Source of the DNA: Bacteroidota bacterium
GTDB taxonomy: Bacteria > Bacteroidota > Bacteroidia > Bacteroidales > CG2-30-32-10
NCBI GenBank assembly: GCA_013377115.1
Contig: JACAAW010000018.1
Coordinates: 1 to 36,293 of the forward strand
Direction: 5' to 3'
DNA length: 36,293 nt
The notes under the pieces are model-generated. The model searched no databases and was not told the DNA's origin. It saw only the letters and a program-made list of their open reading frames with translations. The translations under genes and the position numbers were made by a program. Positions 1,666 to 35,093 of the stretch are shown here, in pieces (the stretch's first letter is position 1; the number at the start of each line of letters is the position of its first letter).

Positions 1666-2754
1666 ATGAGTGATATAACAGATTTATATAAAGATATAGT
1701 TATTCAAATAGCTACCCCTTATGGAACAGGGACTGGATTTTATTTAAAAAAGGACAATGTTTTCGTTACCAATAATCATGTTGTTAAAGGTTCCTCTGAA
1801 GTAATAATTAGTGGAAAAAGTTTTAGCAAAATGCTAACCGAAGTTCTTTTTAATGACCCAATTTACGATTTGGCTTTTCTGAAAGTTCCTGATAATATTA
1901 CACTTGCTGAAGTTGATTTGTCAAGTGTACCTTTAAACGATGGCGACCAAATTACTGCAATTGGACATCCTTATGGTTTGAAATATACATCAACAAGAGG
2001 AATTGTTTCAAAAGCAAGCCGATTGTACAATGACATCAATTATGTTCAGGTTGATGCTGCAATTAATCCTGGAAATAGCGGTGGACCGCTGGTGAATGGC
2101 AATGGCGAAATCGTTGGTGTGAACACTTTTATTATTGCTGATGGTAATAATCTTGGATTTTCATTACCAGCCAATTATGTGAGAGATGCCATTAACGATT
2201 ACAAAGCAATTTTCGGGAAAAAAGCATTTAGGTGCAATTCTTGCAAAAATATTTTAACCGAAGAAACTCTGGATGATAAATATTGTTCGTTCTGTGGTTC
2301 TAAAATTGAAATTACCGATTTTAAACCAAAACCTTATGTGCCATCGGGAGTTGGAATTAAAGTTGAAGAAATTATTGAAAAATTAGGCAAAAATGTGAGC
2401 CTTTCCAGAATTGGACCCGATTTATGGGAAATTGAAAATGGTAGTGCAATTGTAAAAATTACTTATTGGCAAAATTCCAGATTTGTAATTGGTGACGCGC
2501 ATTTGTGTAATTTGCCAAAAATGAACATTCTCGAAATTTACGAATACCTTTTAAGAGAAAATTATGATTTAGAAGGTTTGGTTTTTAGTGTAAATAATCA
2601 AGAAGTATTACTTTCGATGTTGGTTTATGATGAAGATTTATCTCTAGAAACCGGAGTTGAAATTTTCAGTAAACTATTTGATAAAGCTGATTATTATGAT
2701 ACCATTCTAATTGATAAATACGGTGCTGTGCCTCATTTAAAAGAGGATTTTTGA
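1666..2754 (+). CDS. Cytoplasmic trypsin-like serine protease with zinc ribbon and YbjN-like tail
   Basis: This 362-residue protein has three parts. Residues 8-180 form a trypsin-fold (S1C, DegP/HtrA-like) protease with a complete triad: His38 in TNNHVV, Asp68 in YDLAFLKV and Ser138 in GNSGGP. Residues 188-212 form a zinc ribbon with Cys190-X2-Cys193 and Cys207-X2-Cys210. Residues about 225-355 look like a YbjN/type III chaperone-like domain (a 'W.I.NGSA.VKI.Y' strand pair and a helix before 'L...Y.LEGL.FSV'). HtrA proteases usually carry a signal peptide and PDZ domains; both are absent here, so it should act in the cytoplasm. It follows the upstream YbjN-like gene by 26 bases and is probably in the same transcript. 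Protease activity is well supported; substrate and purpose are unknown. Confidence 0.85.
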   Translation: MSDITDLYKDIVIQIATPYGTGTGFYLKKDNVFVTNNHVVKGSSEVIISGKSFSKMLTEVLFNDPIYDLAFLKVPDNITLAEVDLSSVPLNDGDQITAIGHPYGLKYTSTRGIVSKASRLYNDINYVQVDAAINPGNSGGPLVNGNGEIVGVNTFIIADGNNLGFSLPANYVRDAINDYKAIFGKKAFRCNSCKNILTEETLDDKYCSFCGSKIEITDFKPKPYVPSGVGIKVEEIIEKLGKNVSLSRIGPDLWEIENGSAIVKITYWQNSRFVIGDAHLCNLPKMNILEIYEYLLRENYDLEGLVFSVNNQEVLLSMLVYDEDLSLETGVEIFSKLFDKADYYDTILIDKYGAVPHLKEDF

Positions 2755-2929: not shown

Positions 2930-4486
2930 ATGTTTTCGCAAAAAGATTTAAAGCAAATTAAGGAAAAGAAAATTTCTGAAACCACCATCAATCATCAGGT
3001 GGAGAGTTTTAAAAATGGATTTCCTTTTATTAAACTAGTCGATGCCGCAACTCCAGTAGATGGAATTAAAGTTATTTCGAAGCAAGAACTAGATTTCTTA
3101 GCCAGAACTTTTGATGTGGAAATATCAAAACGAAATGTTATAAAATTTGTTCCAGCTAGTGGCGCCGCAAGCCGAATGTTTAAAAATCTCTTCACTTTTC
3201 GTGAAAAATACAATAATACAACTGAGAGTTTAGAAATTTTATTCAAGGACCAAAGTCCCGATTCTATTTTTCAGTTTTTTTATCAATTAAAGAGATTTGC
3301 TTTTTACGAGGATTTGAAAAATAAAATGTTTGCTGATGGAATCGATATCGAAACTGCCTTGCAATCAAAAGATTACAATCTCATTTTGGATTATTTACTT
3401 ACGGATAAAGGTTTGAATTATGGCGAACAGCCAAAAGCCTTGCTTAAATTTCATCAATATTCGAAATTTTCGAGAACCGCAATTGAAGAACATTTGGTAG
3501 AAGGTGCAATTTACTGCAAAGATTTTTATAATAATGTCAACATCCATTTTACAGTTTCACCTGAACATTTGAAAGAATTCGAATCTTTGGTAGAAAAGGT
3601 GAGGCGAAACTACGAAAACTTATTTGATGTAAAATTTAGTATTGGTTTTTCAGTTCAAAAATCATCAACCGACACCATTGCCGTTGATATGGAAAACAAT
3701 CCTTTTAGAGAAAAAGATGGAAGCTTGCTTTTCCGTCCGGGCGGACATGGAGCCTTGATTGAGAATTTGAACGATCTTCACGGCGATATTATTTTTATTA
3801 AGAATATTGATAATATTGTTCCAGACCAATACAAAGAAACAACTTCTATTTACAAAAAAGCCATTGGAAAGTATTTAATCGATTTGCAAGCCAAGACTTT
3901 TGACTATTTAAAACTCCTCGAAAACGAATATATCAAAGCAGAAGTTGTTGAAGAAATTATTCAATTTGCTGCCAATGAATTGTATGTGAGGGAACCCAGA
4001 ATCAATGAACTCTCCTTAAAGGAGAAAATTGTTTTTCTTTTCGATAAATTGAACCGCCCGATGCGAATTTGTGGAATGGTTAAAAATGAAGGCGAACCTG
4101 GCGGCGGACCATTTTGGGTGAAAAATGCTTATAACGAAATTTCTTTGCAAGTGGTTGAATCTTCCCAAGTGGATTTAAATAATCCAAAACAAAAAGAAAT
4201 TTTGACTTCATCAACCCATTTTAATCCCGTTGATTTGGTTTGCTGCGTAAGAGATTATAAAGGAATTTGCTTTAATTTACCCGAATTTGTTGACCACCAA
4301 ACAGGTTTTATCTCTGCAAAATCGAAAGACGGTAAAGATTTAAAGGCTTTAGAATTGCCAGGTTTGTGGAATGGCGCCATGGCCGACTGGATTACCGTTT
4401 TTGTGGAAGTGCCACTCATTACCTTTAATCCTGTGAAAACCGTAAATGATTTATTGAGAAAAGAACATCAAATTGTAATAATTTAA
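2930..4486 (+). CDS. DUF4301 family protein, possible nucleotidyltransferase fold
   Basis: This 518-residue protein matches the DUF4301 family of Bacteroidota, starting with the typical 'F...DLKQI..K.IS...I..Q...F..GFPF.KL'. I chose the ATG at 2930 because homologues begin there; the frame is open back to 2876, but that adds 18 residues with no family resemblance. Residues 74-83 (VPASGAASRM) resemble the nucleotide-binding loop of sugar nucleotidyltransferases. RPGGHGA (269-275) followed by KNIDNIVPD (291-299) resembles the 'PxGNGG...vDN' block of UDP-N-acetylglucosamine pyrophosphorylases. This suggests a diverged UTP-sugar transferase fold, but that is inference: the family has no assigned function that I know of. 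It is soluble, with no signal peptide. A membrane protein gene follows after 18 bases. Confidence 0.85.
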   Translation: MFSQKDLKQIKEKKISETTINHQVESFKNGFPFIKLVDAATPVDGIKVISKQELDFLARTFDVEISKRNVIKFVPASGAASRMFKNLFTFREKYNNTTESLEILFKDQSPDSIFQFFYQLKRFAFYEDLKNKMFADGIDIETALQSKDYNLILDYLLTDKGLNYGEQPKALLKFHQYSKFSRTAIEEHLVEGAIYCKDFYNNVNIHFTVSPEHLKEFESLVEKVRRNYENLFDVKFSIGFSVQKSSTDTIAVDMENNPFREKDGSLLFRPGGHGALIENLNDLHGDIIFIKNIDNIVPDQYKETTSIYKKAIGKYLIDLQAKTFDYLKLLENEYIKAEVVEEIIQFAANELYVREPRINELSLKEKIVFLFDKLNRPMRICGMVKNEGEPGGGPFWVKNAYNEISLQVVESSQVDLNNPKQKEILTSSTHFNPVDLVCCVRDYKGICFNLPEFVDHQTGFISAKSKDGKDLKALELPGLWNGAMADWITVFVEVPLITFNPVKTVNDLLRKEHQIVII

Positions 4487-25739: not shown

Positions 25740-27305
25740 ATGAGAAAGAAAGTTGACTTCCTAATTTTGGGTTCTGGCATTGCAGGTTTAAGTTATGCAT
25801 TAAAAGTAGCACCTTATGGAAAAGTTTGTATTGTTACAAAAGCCAATGCTGATGAAGCAACCACAAAATATGCTCAAGGTGGAATAGCTGCTGTAATCAA
25901 TACTCCGGATACTTATGAAAAGCATATTCAAGATACTTTAATTGCTGGTGATGGCTTATGCGACGAAAAAGTTGTACGGTTTGCCATTTCTGAATCAACT
26001 GCTCGAATTGAAGAGTTGGTGGAGTGGGGCACTAATTTCGATAAAACTACTTCTGGAAAATTTGATTTGGCAAAAGAAGGTGGTCACTCAGAATATCGGG
26101 TTCTTCATCATAAAGATATTACTGGAAAAGAAATTGAAAGGGCACTATTAGAACAAGCTCGAAAACACAAAAATATTGAAATTTTAGAAAATCACTTCAC
26201 ATTAGATATTATTACCCAGCATCATTTGGGACAAATTGTCAAAAAAGACACCCCAAATATTACTTGTTATGGTGTTTATGTCCTGAAACCAAATTCCCAT
26301 GATGTATTGACAATTTTGGCCAAAACAACATTAATGGCAACTGGTGGTGCAGGAAATGTTTACAACACAACTACGAATCCACCAATTTCAACTGGGGATG
26401 GAATTGCAATGGTTTATCGAGCAAAAGGAAAAGTTGAAAATATGGAATTCATTCAGTTTCATCCAACTTCATTGTATAATCCCAACGAAAAACCATCTTA
26501 TTTAATCACAGAAGCAATGCGGGGTTTTGGTGGAATTTTGAAAACCATTTCTGGCAAAGAATTCATGCAAAAATATGATGAAAGAAAGTCGCTTGCTCCA
26601 CGTGATATTGTTGCAAGAGCAATTGACAGTGAAATGAAAATTTCGGGCGATGATTATGTTTGTTTAGATTGCCGTCATTTAAATAAAAATGAATTAATTA
26701 ATCATTTTCCTAATATTTATGCAAAATGTTTAAGTATAGGAATTGATTTATCAAAAGAAATGATTCCAGTGGTCCCTGCGGCTCATTATGTTTGCGGAGG
26801 AGTGCGAGTAGATGAATTTGGGTGTACTTCCATAAAAAATCTTTATGCATCAGGAGAGTGCTCCTGTACGGGTTTACATGGTGCAAACAGATTGGCATCC
26901 AATTCGCTTCTCGAAGCAATTGTTTTTTCTGAAAGAGCCAGCAAAGATGCCATTGCTAATTTCGAAAAGGTTTCTTTTTGTGATGAAATCCCAAATTGGA
27001 ATTCAGAAGGTACAGTTCTAAATGAAGAAATGGTTTTAATTACTCAAACCATGCGCGAACTTCAAAGCATAATGAGCAATTATGTAGGAATTGTTCGTTC
27101 TGATATTCGGTTAAAAAGAGCTTTCGATCGCATTGAAATAATTTACCATGAAACAGAAGATTTATATGAAAAATCTATTTTAACTGAGAAGATTTGCGAA
27201 TTAAGGAATTTAATACTAATTGCATATTTAATAATTAAAATGGCAATGGCAAGGAAAGAGAGTAGGGGATTGCATTTTTCAATTAATTATCCAAGAGTCA
27301 AATAA
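25740..27305 (+). CDS. nadB: L-aspartate oxidase
   Basis: This 521-residue FAD enzyme converts L-aspartate to iminoaspartate, the first step of de novo NAD synthesis; quinolinate synthase then uses the product. Visible are the FAD-binding GSGIAGLSYAL at about 11-21, 'TKYAQGGIAAV' (about 42-52), 'FDLAKEGGHSEYRVLHHKDITG', 'FIQFHPTSLY', 'LAPRDIVARAIDSE' and 'ASGECSCTGLHGANRLASNSLLEA', all typical of NadB and distinguishing it from succinate dehydrogenase flavoproteins. Length is normal. nadA is not in the window; nadK lies in the opposite-strand cluster about 7 kb away. Confidence 0.95.
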   Translation: MRKKVDFLILGSGIAGLSYALKVAPYGKVCIVTKANADEATTKYAQGGIAAVINTPDTYEKHIQDTLIAGDGLCDEKVVRFAISESTARIEELVEWGTNFDKTTSGKFDLAKEGGHSEYRVLHHKDITGKEIERALLEQARKHKNIEILENHFTLDIITQHHLGQIVKKDTPNITCYGVYVLKPNSHDVLTILAKTTLMATGGAGNVYNTTTNPPISTGDGIAMVYRAKGKVENMEFIQFHPTSLYNPNEKPSYLITEAMRGFGGILKTISGKEFMQKYDERKSLAPRDIVARAIDSEMKISGDDYVCLDCRHLNKNELINHFPNIYAKCLSIGIDLSKEMIPVVPAAHYVCGGVRVDEFGCTSIKNLYASGECSCTGLHGANRLASNSLLEAIVFSERASKDAIANFEKVSFCDEIPNWNSEGTVLNEEMVLITQTMRELQSIMSNYVGIVRSDIRLKRAFDRIEIIYHETEDLYEKSILTEKICELRNLILIAYLIIKMAMARKESRGLHFSINYPRVK

Positions 27306-27866: not shown

Positions 27867-28388
27867 TTATTTAATACCAATTTTCTTTTTCACAAGTGGC
27901 AGAATATTTTCACTACCGTCATTATAAAGAAGGACGCCAACTCCAGCATCAAAAATATAAGTATAGCCGTTTTCTTTTGCCACATCTTCAATTGCTTTTT
28001 TAGCTTTATCAACAATTGGCTTTAGAACTTCTTGTTCTTTATTCTGTAGGTCTTGCTGAGCAGAAGTTTGAAAAGCTTCAATTCTTCCGTTTAAATCTTG
28101 CAATTCTTTTTGTTTAGTTTGTTTGATTAATTCAGACATTGTTGCTTGGTTGGCAGTAAAATCAGTATATTTTGTTTCTAATTCGTTTTGCATTGCTTTT
28201 AACTGATTCTCTAGAGATTTTTGATAATCTTGCATTTTTTGCATAGCAGAATCTCTTCCTGGCATCATTTTAAGTAATTCGTTTGAATCAACATGCCCTA
28301 GTTTTATTTTTGCTTGAGAAAAAACACTTGTTGAAATACATGCTAGAATTAAGAATACAGAAACTTTAAATAGATTTTTCATTGTCAT
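27867..28388 (-). CDS. OmpH/Skp-family periplasmic chaperone (second copy)
   Basis: This 173-residue protein has a signal peptide ending near VFSQ at about residue 25. After the first mature strand ('KIKLGHVDSNELLKMMPGRDSA') comes a long lysine/glutamine-rich coiled-coil hairpin ('MQKMQDYQKSLENQLKAMQNEL' to 'LQNKEQEVLKPIVDKAKKAIEDVA') and the closing strand 'YTYIFDAGVGVLLY'. This is the Skp/OmpH fold, a trimeric holder that keeps unfolded outer-membrane proteins soluble. Translation may start at Met1 or Met3. It is the last gene of the bamA cluster and has its own -7 element in the 67-bp gap upstream. Confidence 0.9.
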   Translation of the reverse strand: MTMKNLFKVSVFLILACISTSVFSQAKIKLGHVDSNELLKMMPGRDSAMQKMQDYQKSLENQLKAMQNELETKYTDFTANQATMSELIKQTKQKELQDLNGRIEAFQTSAQQDLQNKEQEVLKPIVDKAKKAIEDVAKENGYTYIFDAGVGVLLYNDGSENILPLVKKKIGIK

Positions 28389-28409
28389 TTTTTGGTTTAA
28401 TTATTTTTG

Positions 28410-28417
28410 CAAATTTA
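28410..28417 (-). promoter_or_regulatory. Internal -7 element before the second ompH gene
   Basis: The minus strand reads TAAATTTG, an exact TANNTTTG match, 21 bases before the ATG at 28388. A TTG occurs 17 bases upstream (28437-28435), shorter than the usual 19-21. It may let this chaperone be expressed independently of the cluster. Confidence 0.4.
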
Positions 28418-28455
28418 TAAAAAACATTTACAAACAAAAATTTTATTTGTAGGTG

Positions 28456-29019
28456 TTATTTGTTTTTAGGTTTATCTTTTTCAGTATTTGTTTTATAACC
28501 GCCTGGTTTATATCCAAGTTTTTGTAAAACATCATCACTTTTGTCAAATTTAGAACTAGAATAAACCATTGTTACACTACTACTGGTTTTATCAAATATT
28601 ATCGCATATCCACCATCAGTGGCAACTCCTTCAATAGCATTGTAAACTTTATCCTGAATAGGCTTAACCAATTCTTGGCGTTTTTTTGATAAATCACCTT
28701 CTTTTCCAAAACGTTGTTTTTGCAAATCTTTTGCTTCTTTTTCTTTTTTTACAATTTCGTCTTGTCTTTTTTTCTTCATTTCTTCTGGAAGAAGAACTGA
28801 TTCAGCTTGGAAGGCCTTATAAAGTTTATCAATTTCTGTAAATTTTGCTTCAATTTCTTTTTGCCAATCAACTGATAGTGAATTTAATTGATCTTGAGCA
28901 GTGTTGTATTCTGGAATATTTTCCAAAATATATTGAGTGTCAACAAATGCAATTTTTTGTGCAAATGTAAAATAACTTGTTACAAGTAAAATACTTGCAG
29001 TGATGATGAATTTTTTCAT
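28456..29019 (-). CDS. OmpH/Skp-family periplasmic chaperone (first copy)
   Basis: This 187-residue protein has a signal peptide ending near TFAQ at about residue 20, then 'KIAFVDTQYILENIPEYNTAQDQL' as the first strand and helix. A long charged coiled coil follows ('EEMKKKRQDEIVKKEKEAKDLQ') and then 'GGYAIIFDKTSSSVTMVYSS' as the closing strands. A Lys/Asn-rich tail of about 20 residues extends beyond the Skp core. Two adjacent ompH genes after bamA are the usual Bacteroidota arrangement. The paralogues differ clearly in sequence and may hold different clients. Confidence 0.92.
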   Translation of the reverse strand: MKKFIITASILLVTSYFTFAQKIAFVDTQYILENIPEYNTAQDQLNSLSVDWQKEIEAKFTEIDKLYKAFQAESVLLPEEMKKKRQDEIVKKEKEAKDLQKQRFGKEGDLSKKRQELVKPIQDKVYNAIEGVATDGGYAIIFDKTSSSVTMVYSSSKFDKSDDVLQKLGYKPGGYKTNTEKDKPKNK

Positions 29020-29027
29020 TTTAATGT

Positions 29028-29033
29028 CTCCTT
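29028..29033 (-). promoter_or_regulatory. Shine-Dalgarno site of the first ompH gene
   Basis: The minus strand reads AAGGAG eight bases before the ATG at 29019. A strong Shine-Dalgarno match is noteworthy because most starts I inspected in this window lack one, as is common in Bacteroidota. Confidence 0.55.
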
Positions 29034-29048
29034 TTTTAGTTAATTTCC

Positions 29049-31568
29049 TTAATCAATGGACTGGTTAATTGAAAAATGGAAATGACCTTTATTTGCTCCA
29101 GGGTTTCCTTCAATTGCATCAAAGCCATAGCCCCAATCCAATCCAAGCATTCCAAACATTGGTAAATAAATCCTTACTCCAACTCCAGCCGATCTTTTTA
29201 AGTCAAATGTGTTAAAATTTTTAAATTTCGACCAAGCATTTCCTGCTTCTCCAAAACCTAAAAGAAAAATTGTTGCCATAGGGTTTGTCGAAATAGGATA
29301 TCTTAATTCCACGGTGAATTTATCAAATATTGTACCACCAATATAACTGTTACTAGAATTGACCGGTGTAAGTGTGCTATTTTCGTATCCTCTCATGGCA
29401 ATAATCTCTCTTCCATCCATTGAGAAACCTGATAATCCATCGCCACCGAGGTAAAATCTCTCGAAGGGAGAAGTTCCAATTTTATCATTATATAAACCAA
29501 GGAATCCAAATTTTGCCTTGGTGTTTAACACTAATTTTCGTTCGCCATTACCAGCTAATTTTGTGAACCATGATAAATTCAATTTCCATTTGTGATATTC
29601 TATCCATCTATATTTTTCTTGATTATTTGCATTAGTATAATCAACATTATTAAATGAAGAAAAAGGTGGAGTTGCTTGAAGTGATAATGTTATTTCAGAA
29701 CCTGCGGTTGGATAAATTGGTGCATCAATTGAATTTCTTCCTAGGCTGATTAAATAGCTTAAATTATTTGATTTACCATCGCTAAATGTAAAAGTAGAAT
29801 AATAATTGTTTAAGGTATAATTCTGGTAACTAATTTCATTGTAAAGAGTAAAATAATCATCAGGCCATTTCAAGCGTTTGCTTAAACCAATAGACGCACC
29901 AATAATATTAATTGATTGTCGGGCTGGGTCTCCAGATGAAACTCCATTAGATTGTGATGAATAATAGGCAGAAACACTTAAACCATTTGGTTTCTTTCCT
30001 CCAAGCCAAGGTTCAATAAATGAGGCATTATATGATTGATAATAGGTTCCATTTGATTGAGCTCTTAAACTTAATTTTTGGCCACCACCAGAAGGTAGAG
30101 GCTGCCATGCTCCTTTTTTGAAGATATTTGCAGCTGAAAAATTGTTAAAAGAAACTCCTAGAGTTCCAACAATTCTTCCACCTCCCCAACCGCCGGAAAG
30201 TTCTAATTGGTCAGAGGATGTTTCTTCAACAACATATTCAATATCAACTGTTCCATCCACAGGATTAGGTTTTGGATTAACAGCCATTTTTTCTTGGTTG
30301 AAATACCTTAATTGAGCCAATTCACGCTGTGTTCTGATAATATCTGAACGGCTGAAAAGTTGACCAGGTTTTGTTCTTATTTCGCGAAGTACAACATTAT
30401 CATTAGTCTTTGTATTTCCCATTACAGTCACTTTGTTAATTGTAGCTTGCTTTCCTTCATAGATTCTAATTTCCAAGTCAATCGAATCCTTATCAACCAA
30501 AACTTCAACTGGAGTAATTGAGAAAAATAAATAACCATCATCCATATATAAAGATGTAACATCCTTTGCATCGGCATTCATCGAGAGATTTGCATCAAGA
30601 ACCTTTTGGTTATAAATATCACCTTTTTTCACTCTTAAAATTGCTGATAACTCTTCGGTAGGGTATTTTGTATTTCCAATCCAAGTGATGTTTCTGAAAA
30701 AATATTTTTTTCCTTCATCAATAGTCAAATCAACATTGATTCTCTTTTTTCCAATTTTGAACACTGTATCTTTTACAATTTTTGCATCTCTATAACCAAG
30801 TTCATTATATTTTTCAATCAATGCAATTTTATCCTTCTTATAATCATCTTCAATAAATTTTGAAGCTTTCCAAACTCTCCACAAAGCCATTTGCTTTGTT
30901 TCTTTCATTGATTTCCTGAGTTTTCTGCTAATGATACTATTGTTTCCTTTAAAGTTTAAACTGCTGATTTTTACTTTGCTATTTTTTTCAATATTGAAAA
31001 AAACTATCATGCTATTGCTAACAGAAGAATCTTTTTTTTGTGTTATTTTTACTTCAGTATTTAGAAATCCCTTATCTACAAAATATTTTACAATTTTACT
31101 TTTAGATTTAATTAACATATTTTCGGTAACAACATCGCCTCTTGTTAATTTTATTTCATCTCTCAATGAATTAGCTTCGCCTTTTCTAATCCCGTCAAAA
31201 GCAAATGCTGACAGGCGAGGCCTTTCTTTCAAATCTATATTTAAAAAAATTAAACTGCCTTGGATTTTTGAAGCAGTGATTTTGATAAATTCGAATAGTC
31301 CTTGTTTCCAAAGGTTATCAATTGCGCGGGTAATTTTATCTCCAGGAACTTTGATTTTGTCTCCAACAGTAAGCCCAGTAAGTGTTATCAATACATTATT
31401 GTCTAAGTATTGAACTCCAGAAATTGTAATGCCCCCAATTTCGTATTCTTTTGGGTTTGAATAATCTATACCTAAATCGTCACCTAAAGTAATTTGAGCG
31501 CTTATTGAATTTGATATTAGTATTAGTAATATAAATGTGGTAAAAAATTTAAAAAAGTATTTATTCAT
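29049..31568 (-). CDS. bamA: Outer membrane protein assembly factor BamA
   Basis: This is the 839-residue Omp85 protein that folds and inserts beta-barrels into the outer membrane. I chose the ATG at 31568 because it begins a normal signal peptide (hydrophobic core to about residue 20, cleavage near SISAQ at 24-25) and leaves a 19-base gap after uppS; the frame is open back to 31631, but that would overlap uppS and bury the signal peptide. Five POTRA-like segments occupy about 40-440, e.g. 'YEIGGITISGVQYLDNN' and 'ATINKVTVMGNTKTNDNVVLREI'. The rest is a 16-strand barrel with the 'MRGYEN' lid-loop motif (Arg726-Gly-Tyr), ending in '..FHFSINQSID'. Confidence 0.93.
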   Translation of the reverse strand: MNKYFFKFFTTFILLILISNSISAQITLGDDLGIDYSNPKEYEIGGITISGVQYLDNNVLITLTGLTVGDKIKVPGDKITRAIDNLWKQGLFEFIKITASKIQGSLIFLNIDLKERPRLSAFAFDGIRKGEANSLRDEIKLTRGDVVTENMLIKSKSKIVKYFVDKGFLNTEVKITQKKDSSVSNSMIVFFNIEKNSKVKISSLNFKGNNSIISRKLRKSMKETKQMALWRVWKASKFIEDDYKKDKIALIEKYNELGYRDAKIVKDTVFKIGKKRINVDLTIDEGKKYFFRNITWIGNTKYPTEELSAILRVKKGDIYNQKVLDANLSMNADAKDVTSLYMDDGYLFFSITPVEVLVDKDSIDLEIRIYEGKQATINKVTVMGNTKTNDNVVLREIRTKPGQLFSRSDIIRTQRELAQLRYFNQEKMAVNPKPNPVDGTVDIEYVVEETSSDQLELSGGWGGGRIVGTLGVSFNNFSAANIFKKGAWQPLPSGGGQKLSLRAQSNGTYYQSYNASFIEPWLGGKKPNGLSVSAYYSSQSNGVSSGDPARQSINIIGASIGLSKRLKWPDDYFTLYNEISYQNYTLNNYYSTFTFSDGKSNNLSYLISLGRNSIDAPIYPTAGSEITLSLQATPPFSSFNNVDYTNANNQEKYRWIEYHKWKLNLSWFTKLAGNGERKLVLNTKAKFGFLGLYNDKIGTSPFERFYLGGDGLSGFSMDGREIIAMRGYENSTLTPVNSSNSYIGGTIFDKFTVELRYPISTNPMATIFLLGFGEAGNAWSKFKNFNTFDLKRSAGVGVRIYLPMFGMLGLDWGYGFDAIEGNPGANKGHFHFSINQSID

Positions 31569-31587
31569 GTATTTAATTATTAACTTA

Positions 31588-32340
31588 TTAACTTGTTTTT
31601 CCGAATCTTCTTTCTCTACTTTGAAAATCAACTATAGCTTCGTATAAATCCTCTTTTCTAAAATCTGGCCATAATTTTTCTGTAAAGTACAATTCAGAGT
31701 ATGCAATTTGCCATAATAGAAAATTACTAATCCTGTATTCTCCACTTGTTCTAATTAGAAGTTCAGGATCAGGTATGGAAGAAGTATTCAGAAATGAAGA
31801 AAATAAATTTTGGTCAATATCATCTATAGAAATTTCGTTGTTTTTTACTTTTAATGAAATTTGTTTAACAGCATCAATAATTTCCCATTTGGAACTATAG
31901 CTGAGTGCCAAAACCAAAGTGGTTCTTGTGTTTTGAGAAGTACTGTTTATGGCTTCCATTAACTCTTTTTTGCAATTTTTTGGCAGACTTTCTAAATCTC
32001 CAATTGCAAGTAAACGTATATTATTCTTATTTAGTGTCTTTGTCTCCGAATTTATAGTTTTTACTAAAAGTTGCATTAAAGCATCAACCTCATATTTTGG
32101 TCTTGACCAATTTTCAGTAGAAAATGCATACAGGGTAACAAAATTGATTCCTAATTCAGCTGCAGCTTCTATTGTTTCTTTTACTGCTTTAACACCATTC
32201 TGGTGACCGAAAACTCTGACCTTTCCTTTTTGTTTCGCCCATCTTCCATTGCCATCCATAATAATAGCAATATGCTGAGGTAATTTTGCAATATCAATTT
32301 TCTCTTTTGAACTCATTTCAATCTTTCGCAAATTAGTCAT
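31588..32340 (-). CDS. uppS: Undecaprenyl diphosphate synthase
   Basis: This 250-residue cytoplasmic cis-prenyltransferase makes undecaprenyl diphosphate, the carrier lipid for peptidoglycan and surface glycans. Motifs are IAIIMDGNGRWA with the catalytic Asp29, 'GHQNGVKAVKE', 'LYAFSTENWSRP' and 'DPELLIRTSGEYRISNFLLWQIAYSELYF', ending 'FQSRERRFG'. Met9 (32316) is an alternative start that gives a more typical length. It lies 15 bases after the second PorG-like gene and 19 bases before bamA, inside one transcript. Confidence 0.95.
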   Translation of the reverse strand: MTNLRKIEMSSKEKIDIAKLPQHIAIIMDGNGRWAKQKGKVRVFGHQNGVKAVKETIEAAAELGINFVTLYAFSTENWSRPKYEVDALMQLLVKTINSETKTLNKNNIRLLAIGDLESLPKNCKKELMEAINSTSQNTRTTLVLALSYSSKWEIIDAVKQISLKVKNNEISIDDIDQNLFSSFLNTSSIPDPELLIRTSGEYRISNFLLWQIAYSELYFTEKLWPDFRKEDLYEAIVDFQSRERRFGKTS

Positions 32341-32355
32341 GGATAAGGCAAAGCC

Positions 32356-33213
32356 CTAATCAAGATAATAATCTTTATACTTTGAATGTTTAGGGTAAGC
32401 GGAGCAGGATTTTTCTTTTTGTCCTTTTATTCGATAAGTGATGAATACTCCTGCAAAAGAATACCAATCTTTTGTTGAAGAATTTCCTCTTTGAAATCCA
32501 GTTTTATCAGGATTTTCACCAGGGGTCAATGTGGATCTGTCAGCAAGAATAGGTGACATAGGACCATTTTCGGCTGCAAGAATTACAGGGTCTGCATATG
32601 TTTTACTTACATCGTCAAGGTAATCCGTAAAGGTTTTTCTCATTCCCCATTCCGCACCAATACAAATTCTGTCTCCTAGACTATATTTTAATCCAATTCC
32701 AAATGGAATTGCAAAGGAAGTTTGAGAATAAGGTTGTCTATCAGGATACATAGAAGTTCCTTGACCCTCTGTTCCTAAGGGCTGAAGATTATACCATTTG
32801 CTGTCATAAAAACTCTTTGGGGCAAACTTAAATACTGAAATCCCGACAAAAATATATGGAGAAAAATTCATTTTCTTTTTCCCAGTGACATATGGTAAAA
32901 AATTTAATTCTAATTGGGGGGATACTTCAAAAATATCTGATTTAAAATAAAGATTTCTATTTTTATTAAATCCAGAAGCTGCATCATCACCTTCAACAGA
33001 TCCATATAAAAAATCAATTTTAAATGTAAATCTCGGAGTCATATTATAGCGGTAAATTCCACCAAAAGCAGGTTTAGTAAGTAGAAATTGAATTGATGGA
33101 TTCAAATCCCCAATATAATATGAAGTTCCTCCAAAAATACCAATCTCAGACCTTTGACTGAACAAATGAAAAAAGGATAAAACAAAAACCGATATCAAGA
33201 AAAACTTTTTCAT
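32356..33213 (-). CDS. PorG-like outer-membrane barrel (DUF6089), copy 2
   Basis: This 285-residue protein has a signal peptide ending at LFSQ (about residue 20), then 'EIGIFGGTSYYIGDLNP', typical of DUF6089/PorG-like proteins. Alternating strands end with 'WYSFAGVFITYRIKGQ', suggesting an 8-strand barrel. The block 'WYNLQPLGTEGQG...YSQTSFAIPFGIGLKYSLG..ICIGAEWGMRKTFTDYLDDVS.TY' is shared with the gene immediately upstream. PorG anchors the PorK-PorN ring of the type IX secretion system to the outer membrane and in P. gingivalis sits next to uppS and the Omp85/OmpH genes, as here. The basic tail 'KHSKYKDYYLD' is extra. Which copy is the functional PorG cannot be decided from sequence alone. 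Confidence 0.75.
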   Translation of the reverse strand: MKKFFLISVFVLSFFHLFSQRSEIGIFGGTSYYIGDLNPSIQFLLTKPAFGGIYRYNMTPRFTFKIDFLYGSVEGDDAASGFNKNRNLYFKSDIFEVSPQLELNFLPYVTGKKKMNFSPYIFVGISVFKFAPKSFYDSKWYNLQPLGTEGQGTSMYPDRQPYSQTSFAIPFGIGLKYSLGDRICIGAEWGMRKTFTDYLDDVSKTYADPVILAAENGPMSPILADRSTLTPGENPDKTGFQRGNSSTKDWYSFAGVFITYRIKGQKEKSCSAYPKHSKYKDYYLD

Positions 33214-33227
33214 TTAGAACCTTGTCT

Positions 33228-34124
33228 TTAGAATTTAGGCAAATTGAATCCTTTTGGGATTTTATAAAAAACTGTAATTGTTCCAAACATATAGCCATCT
33301 TTGTCTCTAGGATCTCCTCTTTGTTGTCCAGGGGCTGTGACATTTGGTGAAAGAGTTCCATTGGTTGGGTTTGCACAATATGCAGATGCCGTTCCTGCAT
33401 TTTGAATAAGTTCATCAGGGTTATAGTAAGTTGTGCTAACGTCATCAATATAGTCTGTAAAAGTTTTCCTCATACCATATTCTATACCAACAGACCATTT
33501 TCTATCAATTGCAAATTTTACTCCCAGGCCGTAAGGAATACATATTTGGAAATTTGAGTAATCAGTTCTTGTTGGAGTGAGACCTTGTCCCTCAGTATGA
33601 AGTTTTTTTAAGTAATACCAATCTCCGTTGTATTTTGCCTTTGGATTGAAATAAAAACCACCAATACCAACAAAACCATAAAATTCAGTATGGATATTTT
33701 TCCATCCTTTTATTCCTTTTAGGTTGTACCTGTGACCTTCTCGGGCTTTAAAAAACAAATATTCAATCTGCCCAGAAAGTTCGACAACCATGCTGCTGAA
33801 ATTCAAATTTCTATTGTTTCTATATGGTTCTTGGGTAAGATTATCATTCCCACCAACATATCCAAAATACAAATTCCCTTTTGTTGCAACTTTTTTATAC
33901 AATTTATATCTATATCCAATTCCACCAACTAGTTTAGTGGACGGGAAATCTATATCCATAATATTGTTAACACCAATTTGATTCCTTCCACCTAATTCTC
34001 CAAGAAAATTAGTGGCACCAAGGGTAAAAACAAATTCTTTTCTATCTCTTTTCCATTTTTGAGAGTACACAGCTTCAAAAACTATCATTAGAAAGAACAA
34101 AATGCAAATAGATTTATATTTCAT
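33228..34124 (-). CDS. PorG-like outer-membrane barrel (DUF6089), copy 1
   Basis: This 298-residue protein has a signal peptide ('KYKSICILFFLMIVFEAVYSQ'-like, cleavage near residue 21), then 'KEFVFTLGATNFLGELGGRNQIG', a characteristic PorG/DUF6089 opening. It shares with copy 2 'LHTEGQG', 'YSNFQICIPYGLGVKF', 'GIEYGMRKTFTDYIDDVSTTYYNP' and a C-terminal strand 'GYMFGTITVFYKI'. I chose the ATG at 34124; the frame is open to 34184, but a perfect -7 element lies inside that extension. It is 14 bases from copy 2, so the two are co-transcribed. Likely part of, or diverged from, the type IX secretion outer-membrane anchor. Confidence 0.75.
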   Translation of the reverse strand: MKYKSICILFFLMIVFEAVYSQKWKRDRKEFVFTLGATNFLGELGGRNQIGVNNIMDIDFPSTKLVGGIGYRYKLYKKVATKGNLYFGYVGGNDNLTQEPYRNNRNLNFSSMVVELSGQIEYLFFKAREGHRYNLKGIKGWKNIHTEFYGFVGIGGFYFNPKAKYNGDWYYLKKLHTEGQGLTPTRTDYSNFQICIPYGLGVKFAIDRKWSVGIEYGMRKTFTDYIDDVSTTYYNPDELIQNAGTASAYCANPTNGTLSPNVTAPGQQRGDPRDKDGYMFGTITVFYKIPKGFNLPKF

Positions 34125-34163
34125 TTTAAAAAATTTTGTTAATATTTCACTTTCAAAATCACG

Positions 34164-34171
34164 CAAAAATA
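34164..34171 (-). promoter_or_regulatory. -7 element upstream of the PorG-like pair
   Basis: The minus strand reads TATTTTTG, an exact TANNTTTG match, 39 bases before the ATG at 34124. It probably drives PorG-like copy 1 through bamA and the first ompH gene. It also argues against the longer reading of the first PorG-like frame. No TTG is seen at the standard -33 spacing. Confidence 0.5.
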
Positions 34172-34211
34172 ATAAAAATTTCAAAAAAAAACTATGTATT
34201 TGCCAATAATT

Positions 34212-35093
34212 TTAGTTTCTCTTATCAATACCCCACATTAGCTTGTTTCTAATGGTGGAATAATATGTTTCGTTGAATATTTTTATTAAATTTATTTTAA
34301 AATCCTCTTTTTTTATTATTAATTCAATAGAACTTTTGTATGTTTCTGAACGTGAATCTAATCCGATAATAAAATTTTGCTCCCTTCCCTCAACTTTTAG
34401 TTTGATTATACTGCTATCAGGAATAACGATAGGACGTACAGTTAAATTGTGTGAAGCTATTGGAGTAATAATAAAGTTTTTAGAATCTGGAGTTAAAATA
34501 GGTCCTCCACAACTAAGTGAATATGCTGTTGAACCTGTTGGTGTGGCAACAATTATTCCATCAGCCCAATAAGTATTTAAGTAATCATCATTGATATAAG
34601 CTTTTATTGAAATCATTGATGTTGAAAAATTTTTTAAAATACTTAATTCATTTAGGGCATAATTATTTTTTCCGAATAAATTAATCGAGGTATTTACTTT
34701 CAACAAAGTTCTTGATTCTATTTTGTATTTCTTTCTTAAAATATCTTCTATTGACGAGTTAATCTCATCTTTCGAAATACTTGAAAGAAAACCAAGTCTA
34801 CCTGTGTTAATTCCTAAAATTGGGATTTCAGAATCTTCAACTAGCTTGATTGTGTCTAGAATAGTCCCATCTCCACCAATACTAATTAAAAAGTCCACCT
34901 TTTCTTTTAATAAATCTTCCTTTTCACTAAAACTTTCTATATCAGTATTGAAATCGATTTTCTGTTTTAAAAAATCGATAAATTGACTGTATACTAAAAG
35001 TTTGCAATTCTCGGATTCAAGTTTAATAATAAGATGTTGAATATAAATAGAAAATTCATCTGAAAAGAATCTACCAAAAATGGCTATTTTCAT
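34212..35093 (-). CDS. nadK: NAD kinase
   Basis: This 293-residue cytoplasmic enzyme phosphorylates NAD to NADP. The family motif GGDGT is at 73-77 with catalytic Asp76, within 'LISIGGDGTILDTIKLV'. It is followed by 'ILGINTGRLGFLSSI', the 'ALNELSI' motif, and 'WADGIIVATPTGSTAYSLSCGGPIL' near 176-200, all diagnostic. Length is normal. It is the second gene of the minus-strand envelope cluster and is separated from the PorG-like pair by 87 bases that contain a -7 element, so it may be expressed with the upstream outer-membrane gene. Confidence 0.95.
   Translation of the reverse strand: MKIAIFGRFFSDEFSIYIQHLIIKLESENCKLLVYSQFIDFLKQKIDFNTDIESFSEKEDLLKEKVDFLISIGGDGTILDTIKLVEDSEIPILGINTGRLGFLSSISKDEINSSIEDILRKKYKIESRTLLKVNTSINLFGKNNYALNELSILKNFSTSMISIKAYINDDYLNTYWADGIIVATPTGSTAYSLSCGGPILTPDSKNFIITPIASHNLTVRPIVIPDSSIIKLKVEGREQNFIIGLDSRSETYKSSIELIIKKEDFKINLIKIFNETYYSTIRNKLMWGIDKRN

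Follow-up and report, generated by a model that had tools for sequence, protein, structure and literature searches.

The window analyzed here, the whole 36,293-nucleotide stretch of contig JACAAW010000018.1 from a Bacteroidota bacterium, encodes a protein of the DUF4301 family, and the question that this locus raises is what such a protein does. The family model PF14134 covers the protein at full length (744.7 bits, positions 2-507 of 507, Pfam scan), and the genome to which the window belongs has a single DUF4301 copy; an alternative TTG start at position 2876 would yield a 536-aa product. At E-values up to 1, the protein matches none of the NCBIfam families, and hence neither GlmU model (TIGR01173 or TIGR03991), and a single-sequence phmmer search for a solved homolog returned nothing believable. 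In our literature search, DUF4301 was named only in PMC7035244, where the protein is recorded as a table row among those detected in a rumen metaproteome; the accession PF14134 was not found in that search. The answer that we consider fairly probable is that DUF4301, which occurs mainly in Bacteroidota, forms a divergent sister family to UDPGP (PF01704) and would catalyze nucleotidyl transfer onto a sugar 1-phosphate, with UTP as the most likely donor.

The earlier note on this DNA had singled out the strings VPASGAASRM, RPGGHGA and KNIDNIVPD, which the translation indeed contains at V74-M83, 269-275 and 291-299, respectively. Its reading of the first string as a nucleotide-binding loop agrees with the profile comparisons, in which this segment aligns with the UDPGP G-loop, and the parallel that it drew between the other two strings and the catalytic block of pyrophosphorylases is borne out by their alignment with the UDPGP GHG...DN blocks. 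The additional claim of about the right spacing and overall length has to be corrected: the total length is similar because the insertions offset the mostly missing C-terminal region, but H273 and D294 are 21 residues apart, compared with 30 in UDPGP (H213-D243 and H201-D231 in the UDPGP sequences used).

The motifs belong to a strongly conserved framework. The window protein (P0001) and 42 relatives retrieved with the DUF4301 family model (29-54% identity) form an alignment with 63 invariant columns, among which are P75, A76, S77, G78, R82 and M83; P168 and K169; Q243; R269, P270, G272, H273 and G274; K291, N292, D294 and N295; E410; F431 and N432; and P501 and K503. In a deeper alignment, R82, K169, Q243, H273, N292, D294, E410 and N432 are identical in 117/117 members, and K503 is kept in 116, the remaining row being a truncated sequence with a gap there. 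The family-specific segment at residues 376-395 is invariant at P377, C381, G382, V384, G391, G392 and P394 in the same 117 members. The invariance of the motif residues in the 43-sequence alignment goes beyond chance.

Profile comparisons connect this framework to the UDPGP family. Against the PDB, the 43-sequence DUF4301 profile matched the Entamoeba UDP-GlcNAc pyrophosphorylase 3oc9 over the GHG and DN blocks (E 0.0034), the other match being a helical ribosome-biogenesis fragment (E 0.19). In profile-profile alignments, where the E-values are those of single comparisons, residues 142-298 matched 9 bacterial UAP-like sequences (prob 57, E 1.1e-4) and residues 398-511 matched 6 UGP-like sequences (prob 54, E 1.3e-4); these partial matches fall on separate parts of the protein in the correct order, and the UAP and UGP profiles, taken as a yardstick, match each other with prob 99.6. 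The UAP-like alignment places the DUF4301 PKALL (168-172) on the UAP PKGTF and stops short of the G-loop, and the UGP-like alignment sets NPVKTVNDLL on PVKTTxDLL. Against 15 UDPGP sequences picked for a visible GHG/GNGG motif, the local hhalign E-value improves from 7.7e-5 for the whole profile to 1.7e-6 when residues 85-160, an excision picked after the alignment had been inspected, are removed; the match then becomes continuous (355 columns and E 4.7e-8 in global mode; prob 90-93 over the two modes), and in it VPASGAASRMF, joined to GLNYGEQPKALL, aligns against IVAGGQGSRLGFEGPKGTF. The reversed profile gives E 0.76, and 20 column shuffles and 17 unrelated families score 10-22 and 12-27, respectively, compared with 56.6. 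Excision of 23 other 76-residue segments gives E-values from 2.9e-6 to 2.3e-3; the gain from removing 85-160 is the largest but is not unique to that place, because excision of 381-456, the best of the others, is nearly as good. Profiles of the MurU/NTP_transferase type (E 0.06) and of alt-GlmU (E 0.42) do not match DUF4301, and therefore the tie is to UDPGP in particular.

The predicted fold points to the same relationship. The AlphaFold2 model built on the DUF4301 alignment (mean pLDDT 91.3, pTM 0.90) adopts the GT-A/UDPGP fold, with Z-scores of 18-23 to UGP, UAP and USP structures; the absence of a nucleotidyltransferase fold, which the earlier note had named as refuting its idea, is thus not what the model shows. 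All 47 Foldseek matches in the PDB with E<=0.001 are UGP, UAP/AGX or USP (best 7e-12), and glucose-1-phosphate thymidylyltransferase- and NeuA-like structures appear from rank 48 onward, starting at E 3e-3. A second look with VIA-align placed Ugp1p at the top (Z 22.7, rmsd 3.2 A, 322 residues aligned), along with the UAP AGX2 (Z 21.7), the L. major USP (19.4) and GlmU (16.9). That the motif blocks would share one pocket follows only from alignment to solved homologs. The features of the gene and its surroundings are collected in Table 1.

Table 1. Features of the DUF4301 gene and its upstream neighbors in the window (residue numbers are those of the 518-aa product)
Feature	Positions	Strand	Basis or remark
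Protein of 444 aa	305-1639		No family match; precedes the peptidase, then DUF4301
Trypsin-like (HtrA/Deg-type) peptidase	1666..2754	+	Upstream of DUF4301; no evident functional tie
DUF4301 gene (PF14134)	2930..4486	+	518 aa; ATG at 2930, stop at 4486
Predicted nucleotide-binding loop VPASGAASRM (aa 74-83)	3149..3178	+	R82 lines up with the arginine of the UAP loop
Predicted helical insertion (aa 85-160) between loop and PK	3182..3409	+	Profile match better without the segment; loop-PK spacing
P168-K169, putative equivalent of UDPGP PK (AtUGPase Lys99, alpha-phosphate)	3431..3436	+	Profile alignments
Q243, candidate uracil-binding Gln (AtUGPase Gln162)	3656..3658	+	Joint and UAP profiles, not UGP-only profile
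RPGGHGA (aa 269-275), GHG block; H273 aligned with AtUGPase His192	3734..3754	+	Profile alignments
KNIDN (aa 291-295); N292 aligned with AtUGPase Asn220, D294-N295 with the DN block	3800..3814	+	Profile alignments
Mostly helical second segment (aa 300-375), exceeding its UDPGP counterpart in length	3827..4054	+	DSSP of the model; N295-R379 spacing 71-89 aa
Family-specific RPxRxCGMVKNEGEPGGGPF (aa 376-395)	4055..4114	+	Sugar side by alignment
E410, aligned with AtUGPase Glu271 (sugar contact)	4157..4159	+	Profile alignments
F431-N432, aligned with UGP FN (AtUGPase Asn293)	4220..4225	+	Profile alignments
Family-specific PGLWNG (aa 477-482)	4358..4375	+	43-sequence alignment
PVKTVNDLL (aa 501-509) with K503, aligned with the third UDPGP block (PVKTTxDLL)	4430..4456	+	Profile alignments

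DUF4301 retains the UDPGP GHG/GNGG-then-DN block and the PVK block with its conserved lysine, and departs from UDPGP at the loop and at the C-terminus. The distance from the loop to the PK pair (M83-P168) is 62-87 aa in 117/117 DUF4301 proteins, compared with 4 aa in 15/15 UDPGP sequences, and the contiguous signature GGxGT(R/S)(L/M)G...PK was found in none of the 117. By alignment, the G-loop signature is interrupted by an insertion, and its PK is P168-K169; the insertion, located beside the nucleotide loop, probably forms a lid or a partner surface specific to DUF4301. A catalytic signature loop broken by a helical insertion is a structural curiosity in its own right. The C-terminus extends 0-15 aa beyond K503, compared with 22-110 aa in UDPGP (105-110 in the UGP set); with 22 aa only after the lysine in one bacterial UAP (L154), a short C-terminus is not an absolute discriminator. 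The PF01704 cut-off (22 bits) is not reached: DUF4301 was the sole Pfam match for the window protein and two divergent members, and the best on-gene PF01704 match, on the DUF4301 gene of genome G009, scored 18.5 bits. Because the PF01704 score, the contiguous signature and the C-terminal domain all fail, we file DUF4301, within the scope of the profile and fold comparisons made here, as a predicted sister family of UDPGP and not as a member of PF01704.

The likeness is distributed unevenly over the relatives. With UGP (PF01704; Ugp1p, AtUGPase), DUF4301 shares the fold (Z 22.7), the order of the blocks, the K/H/D/E residues, the PVKTxxDLL block and the asparagines N292 and N432, but differs in having R82 in the loop, where the UGP set has S/T, as well as in the loop-PK insertion, the shorter GHG-DN spacing and the shorter C-terminus. 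With UAP/AGX (PF01704; 3oc9, 1jv1), it shares the fold (Z 21.7), the G-loop arginine, Q243 and the GHG/DN register, whereas the UAP-like set has Q and, mostly, W at the two sugar-side positions occupied in DUF4301 by N292 and N432, and lacks the insertion and the shortened C-terminus. The similarity to GlmU and other NTP_transferase proteins is confined to the GT-A core (GlmU Z 16.9), without a profile match and without the acetyltransferase domain.

The residues expected to line the active site can be transferred from AtUGPase. PMC5832301 assigns Gln162, Gly191 and Gly87 to uridine; Asn220, Gly258, Glu271, Asn293 and Leu85 to glucose; His192 and Lys256 to the beta-phosphate; and Lys99 to the alpha-phosphate. 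These contacts were carried to the bacterial UGP L159 by inference from constant offsets and identical letters, and from there to DUF4301 by profile alignment. Counted over ten of these positions, six are identical in register (Lys99-K169, Gly191-G272, His192-H273, Asn220-N292, Glu271-E410 and Asn293-N432), or seven if Q243 is counted; Leu85 and Gly87 are replaced by P75 and S77, and Lys256 and Gly258 have no placeable partner. The UAP-only profile does not set E410 and N432 on their partners. Q243 pairs with Gln162 in the joint and UAP profiles, and the case for uracil is weaker than that for the other contacts because the UGP-only profile puts Q243 on a non-conserved Gln. R82, D294 and K503 would have the roles of their counterparts in the UDPGP family.

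The sugar side of the putative site resembles UGP more than UAP. Since the asparagine of UGP occupies both sugar positions, UTP and a hexose 1-phosphate would be the first candidate substrates. The reaction that we propose would convert UTP and the 1-phosphate of a sugar, probably of a hexose, into a UDP-sugar and pyrophosphate: the loop 74-83, with R82, and K169 would grip the triphosphate, uracil would be recognized by Q243 together with the GHG block, D294 would position the metal, and N292, E410 and N432 would hold the sugar. What the computations establish is the fold, the block order and the conservation of the active-site residues, and a fold with the right residues is by itself no proof of catalysis. 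On this combined sequence and model basis, DUF4301 most likely works like a UDP-sugar pyrophosphorylase. Its function is now directly testable because its build and active-site residues match those of enzymes that make UDP-sugars, and its placement beside UDP-sugar pyrophosphorylases provides a defined assay and a list of residues for mutation.

A specific version of this activity, in which DUF4301 is the GlcNAc-1-phosphate uridylyltransferase that takes the GlmU step in Bacteroides-type genomes, is unlikely. The top PDB sequence match is a UAP, and three DUF4301-positive genomes, G230, G238 and G299 (B. fragilis, which holds locus L105), fall below the cut-off for both TIGR01173 and TIGR03991; with GlmU recognized there by neither of the two models, DUF4301 is one candidate in these genomes. 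Alt-GlmU (TIGR03991) is above the cut-off in 69/72 genomes, the missing three being the same ones, and canonical GlmU (TIGR01173) in 0/23. Set against a GlmU role, however, alt-GlmU is also present in 49 of the 51 DUF4301-positive genomes, 18 DUF4301-negative genomes have no alt-GlmU, N292 and N432 match UGP and not UAP in residue type, and in G230 an AmgK-like kinase beside a MurU-like uridylyltransferase is an equal candidate.

The AmgK-like sugar kinase (APH family) is fused to a RapZ C-terminal domain in G230 (L187:643-2810) and in the window's own genome (L190:78-2266), and in both the fused gene directly precedes the MurU-like gene. Replacement of GlmU by DUF4301 as a general pattern was rejected, with no association across 296 genomes (alt-GlmU in 49/51 positives and 227/245 negatives). 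The role of sole UDP-glucose enzyme was likewise rejected: GalU is above the cut-off in 2/72 genomes, and there is no DUF4301-GalU pattern because the 20 DUF4301-negative genomes among them also have no GalU.

Another candidate function comes from gene order in one family of genomes, f6, which is probably Flavobacteriaceae, an assignment made because Flavo-1 RNAs occur in 4 of 10 loci; a search of these 10 loci for a riboswitch ahead of the operon found none, the Flavo-1 RNAs being the only matches. In all 26 DUF4301-positive f6 genomes, pnuC lies within 1.5 kb of DUF4301; 15 of them have an NR kinase (NRK) fused in frame to DUF4301, 8 have it as a separate, adjacent gene (11-32 bases between the matches) and 3 are counted as lacking it, of which G154 has a marginal NRK match elsewhere; loci of this type include L043, L062 and L064-L070. 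The kinase is a NadR-type NRK domain (TIGR01526 positions 162-320, E 2e-31), and the kinase half of that model alone, positions 164-319, matches the fusion; in the NRK-DUF4301 fusion, no NMN adenylyltransferase domain was detected, the only matches above Pfam cut-offs being AAA_28 and DUF4301. The Pfam scan found no NR kinase domain in the window protein. NadR itself, as described in PMC7221760, joins an NRK to an NMN adenylyltransferase. By analogy, the f6 arrangement looks like a vitamin-salvage unit recalling NadR, with the same NRK domain and pnuC fused to or beside DUF4301; unlike NadR, DUF4301 lacks the NadR adenylyltransferase domain and is built on the UDPGP fold, and most DUF4301 genes have no such link. 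The fusion raises the question whether the UDPGP fold also serves vitamin salvage.

Nevertheless, that DUF4301 acts on NMN supplied by the fused or adjacent kinase, so that NRK-DUF4301 would be NadR invented anew around an adenylyltransferase of UDPGP fold, is quite improbable: both NRK and PnuC are missing from 12/52 DUF4301-positive genomes, not one of the 13 non-f6 positives with PnuC (296-genome set) has it next to DUF4301, three f6 genomes (G029, G088 and G107) carry pnuC-NRK without DUF4301, two others (G084 and G289) have pnuC-DUF4301 without any NRK match, NadD is present in 71/71 genomes, and Q243 suggests uracil, not adenine. A role in NAD salvage in general is also disfavored by the window's own genome, where pnuC and NRK lie together on another contig. 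Confined to Flavobacteriaceae, a PnuC-NRK-DUF4301 system that would import nicotinamide riboside, phosphorylate it and nucleotidylate the NMN within a single fused protein, whether as a NadR that arose independently or as a way to make an unknown NMN-nucleotide, is very unlikely; if true, it would mean that the UDPGP fold was recruited to nicotinamide salvage. DUF4301 as an NMN adenylyltransferase replacing NadD was rejected because NadD is above the cut-off in all 71 genomes. Our literature searches on PnuC/ribosylnicotinamide kinase, GlmU in Bacteroides/Bacteroidetes and the residue roles of UAP found nothing on topic.

Finally, it is highly improbable that DUF4301 kept the fold, lost catalysis and became a sugar-nucleotide-binding regulator, as the altered loop glycines (GGxGT to SGAAS) and the largely missing C-terminal domain might suggest, since 116-117 of the 117 members retain R82, K169, H273, D294 and K503, which would be unusual for a dead enzyme.

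The preferred reading, a UDP-sugar pyrophosphorylase-like enzyme, concerns a family present in 51 of 296 sampled Bacteroidota genomes and also in gut genera such as Bacteroides, Parabacteroides and Prevotella. Its genomic neighbors, surveyed in 121 loci (117 with a clustered DUF4301 gene), point to no sugar substrate: a RelA/SpoT gene, always divergent from DUF4301, occurs in 25, KipA-like and PurT genes are found in 6 each, and other loci have pnuC and NRK. A release-factor-like gene adjoins DUF4301 in 13 of the 121 loci, and a TonB receptor is often next. The pair formed by the 444-aa gene and the peptidase recurs ahead of DUF4301 in L110 and L112.

Several minor observations concern the family and the window. 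Three assemblies named Deltaproteobacteria or Desulfobacteraceae carry DUF4301 (L083, L103 and L124). In one locus (L048, genome G140), an internal insertion leaves two DUF4301 matches within one open frame, and in another genome (G289:C54:1491357-1492843), DUF4301 is interrupted, with two matches and an internal TAA in the first. Farther along the window, without positional link to DUF4301, are an FAD_binding_2/Succ_DH_flav_C flavoprotein (25740-27305) and a NAD kinase (34212-35093); between these (27867-34184), two adjoining DUF6089 proteins lie beside a UppS-like prenyltransferase, a BamA-like Omp85 protein and two OmpH-like genes.
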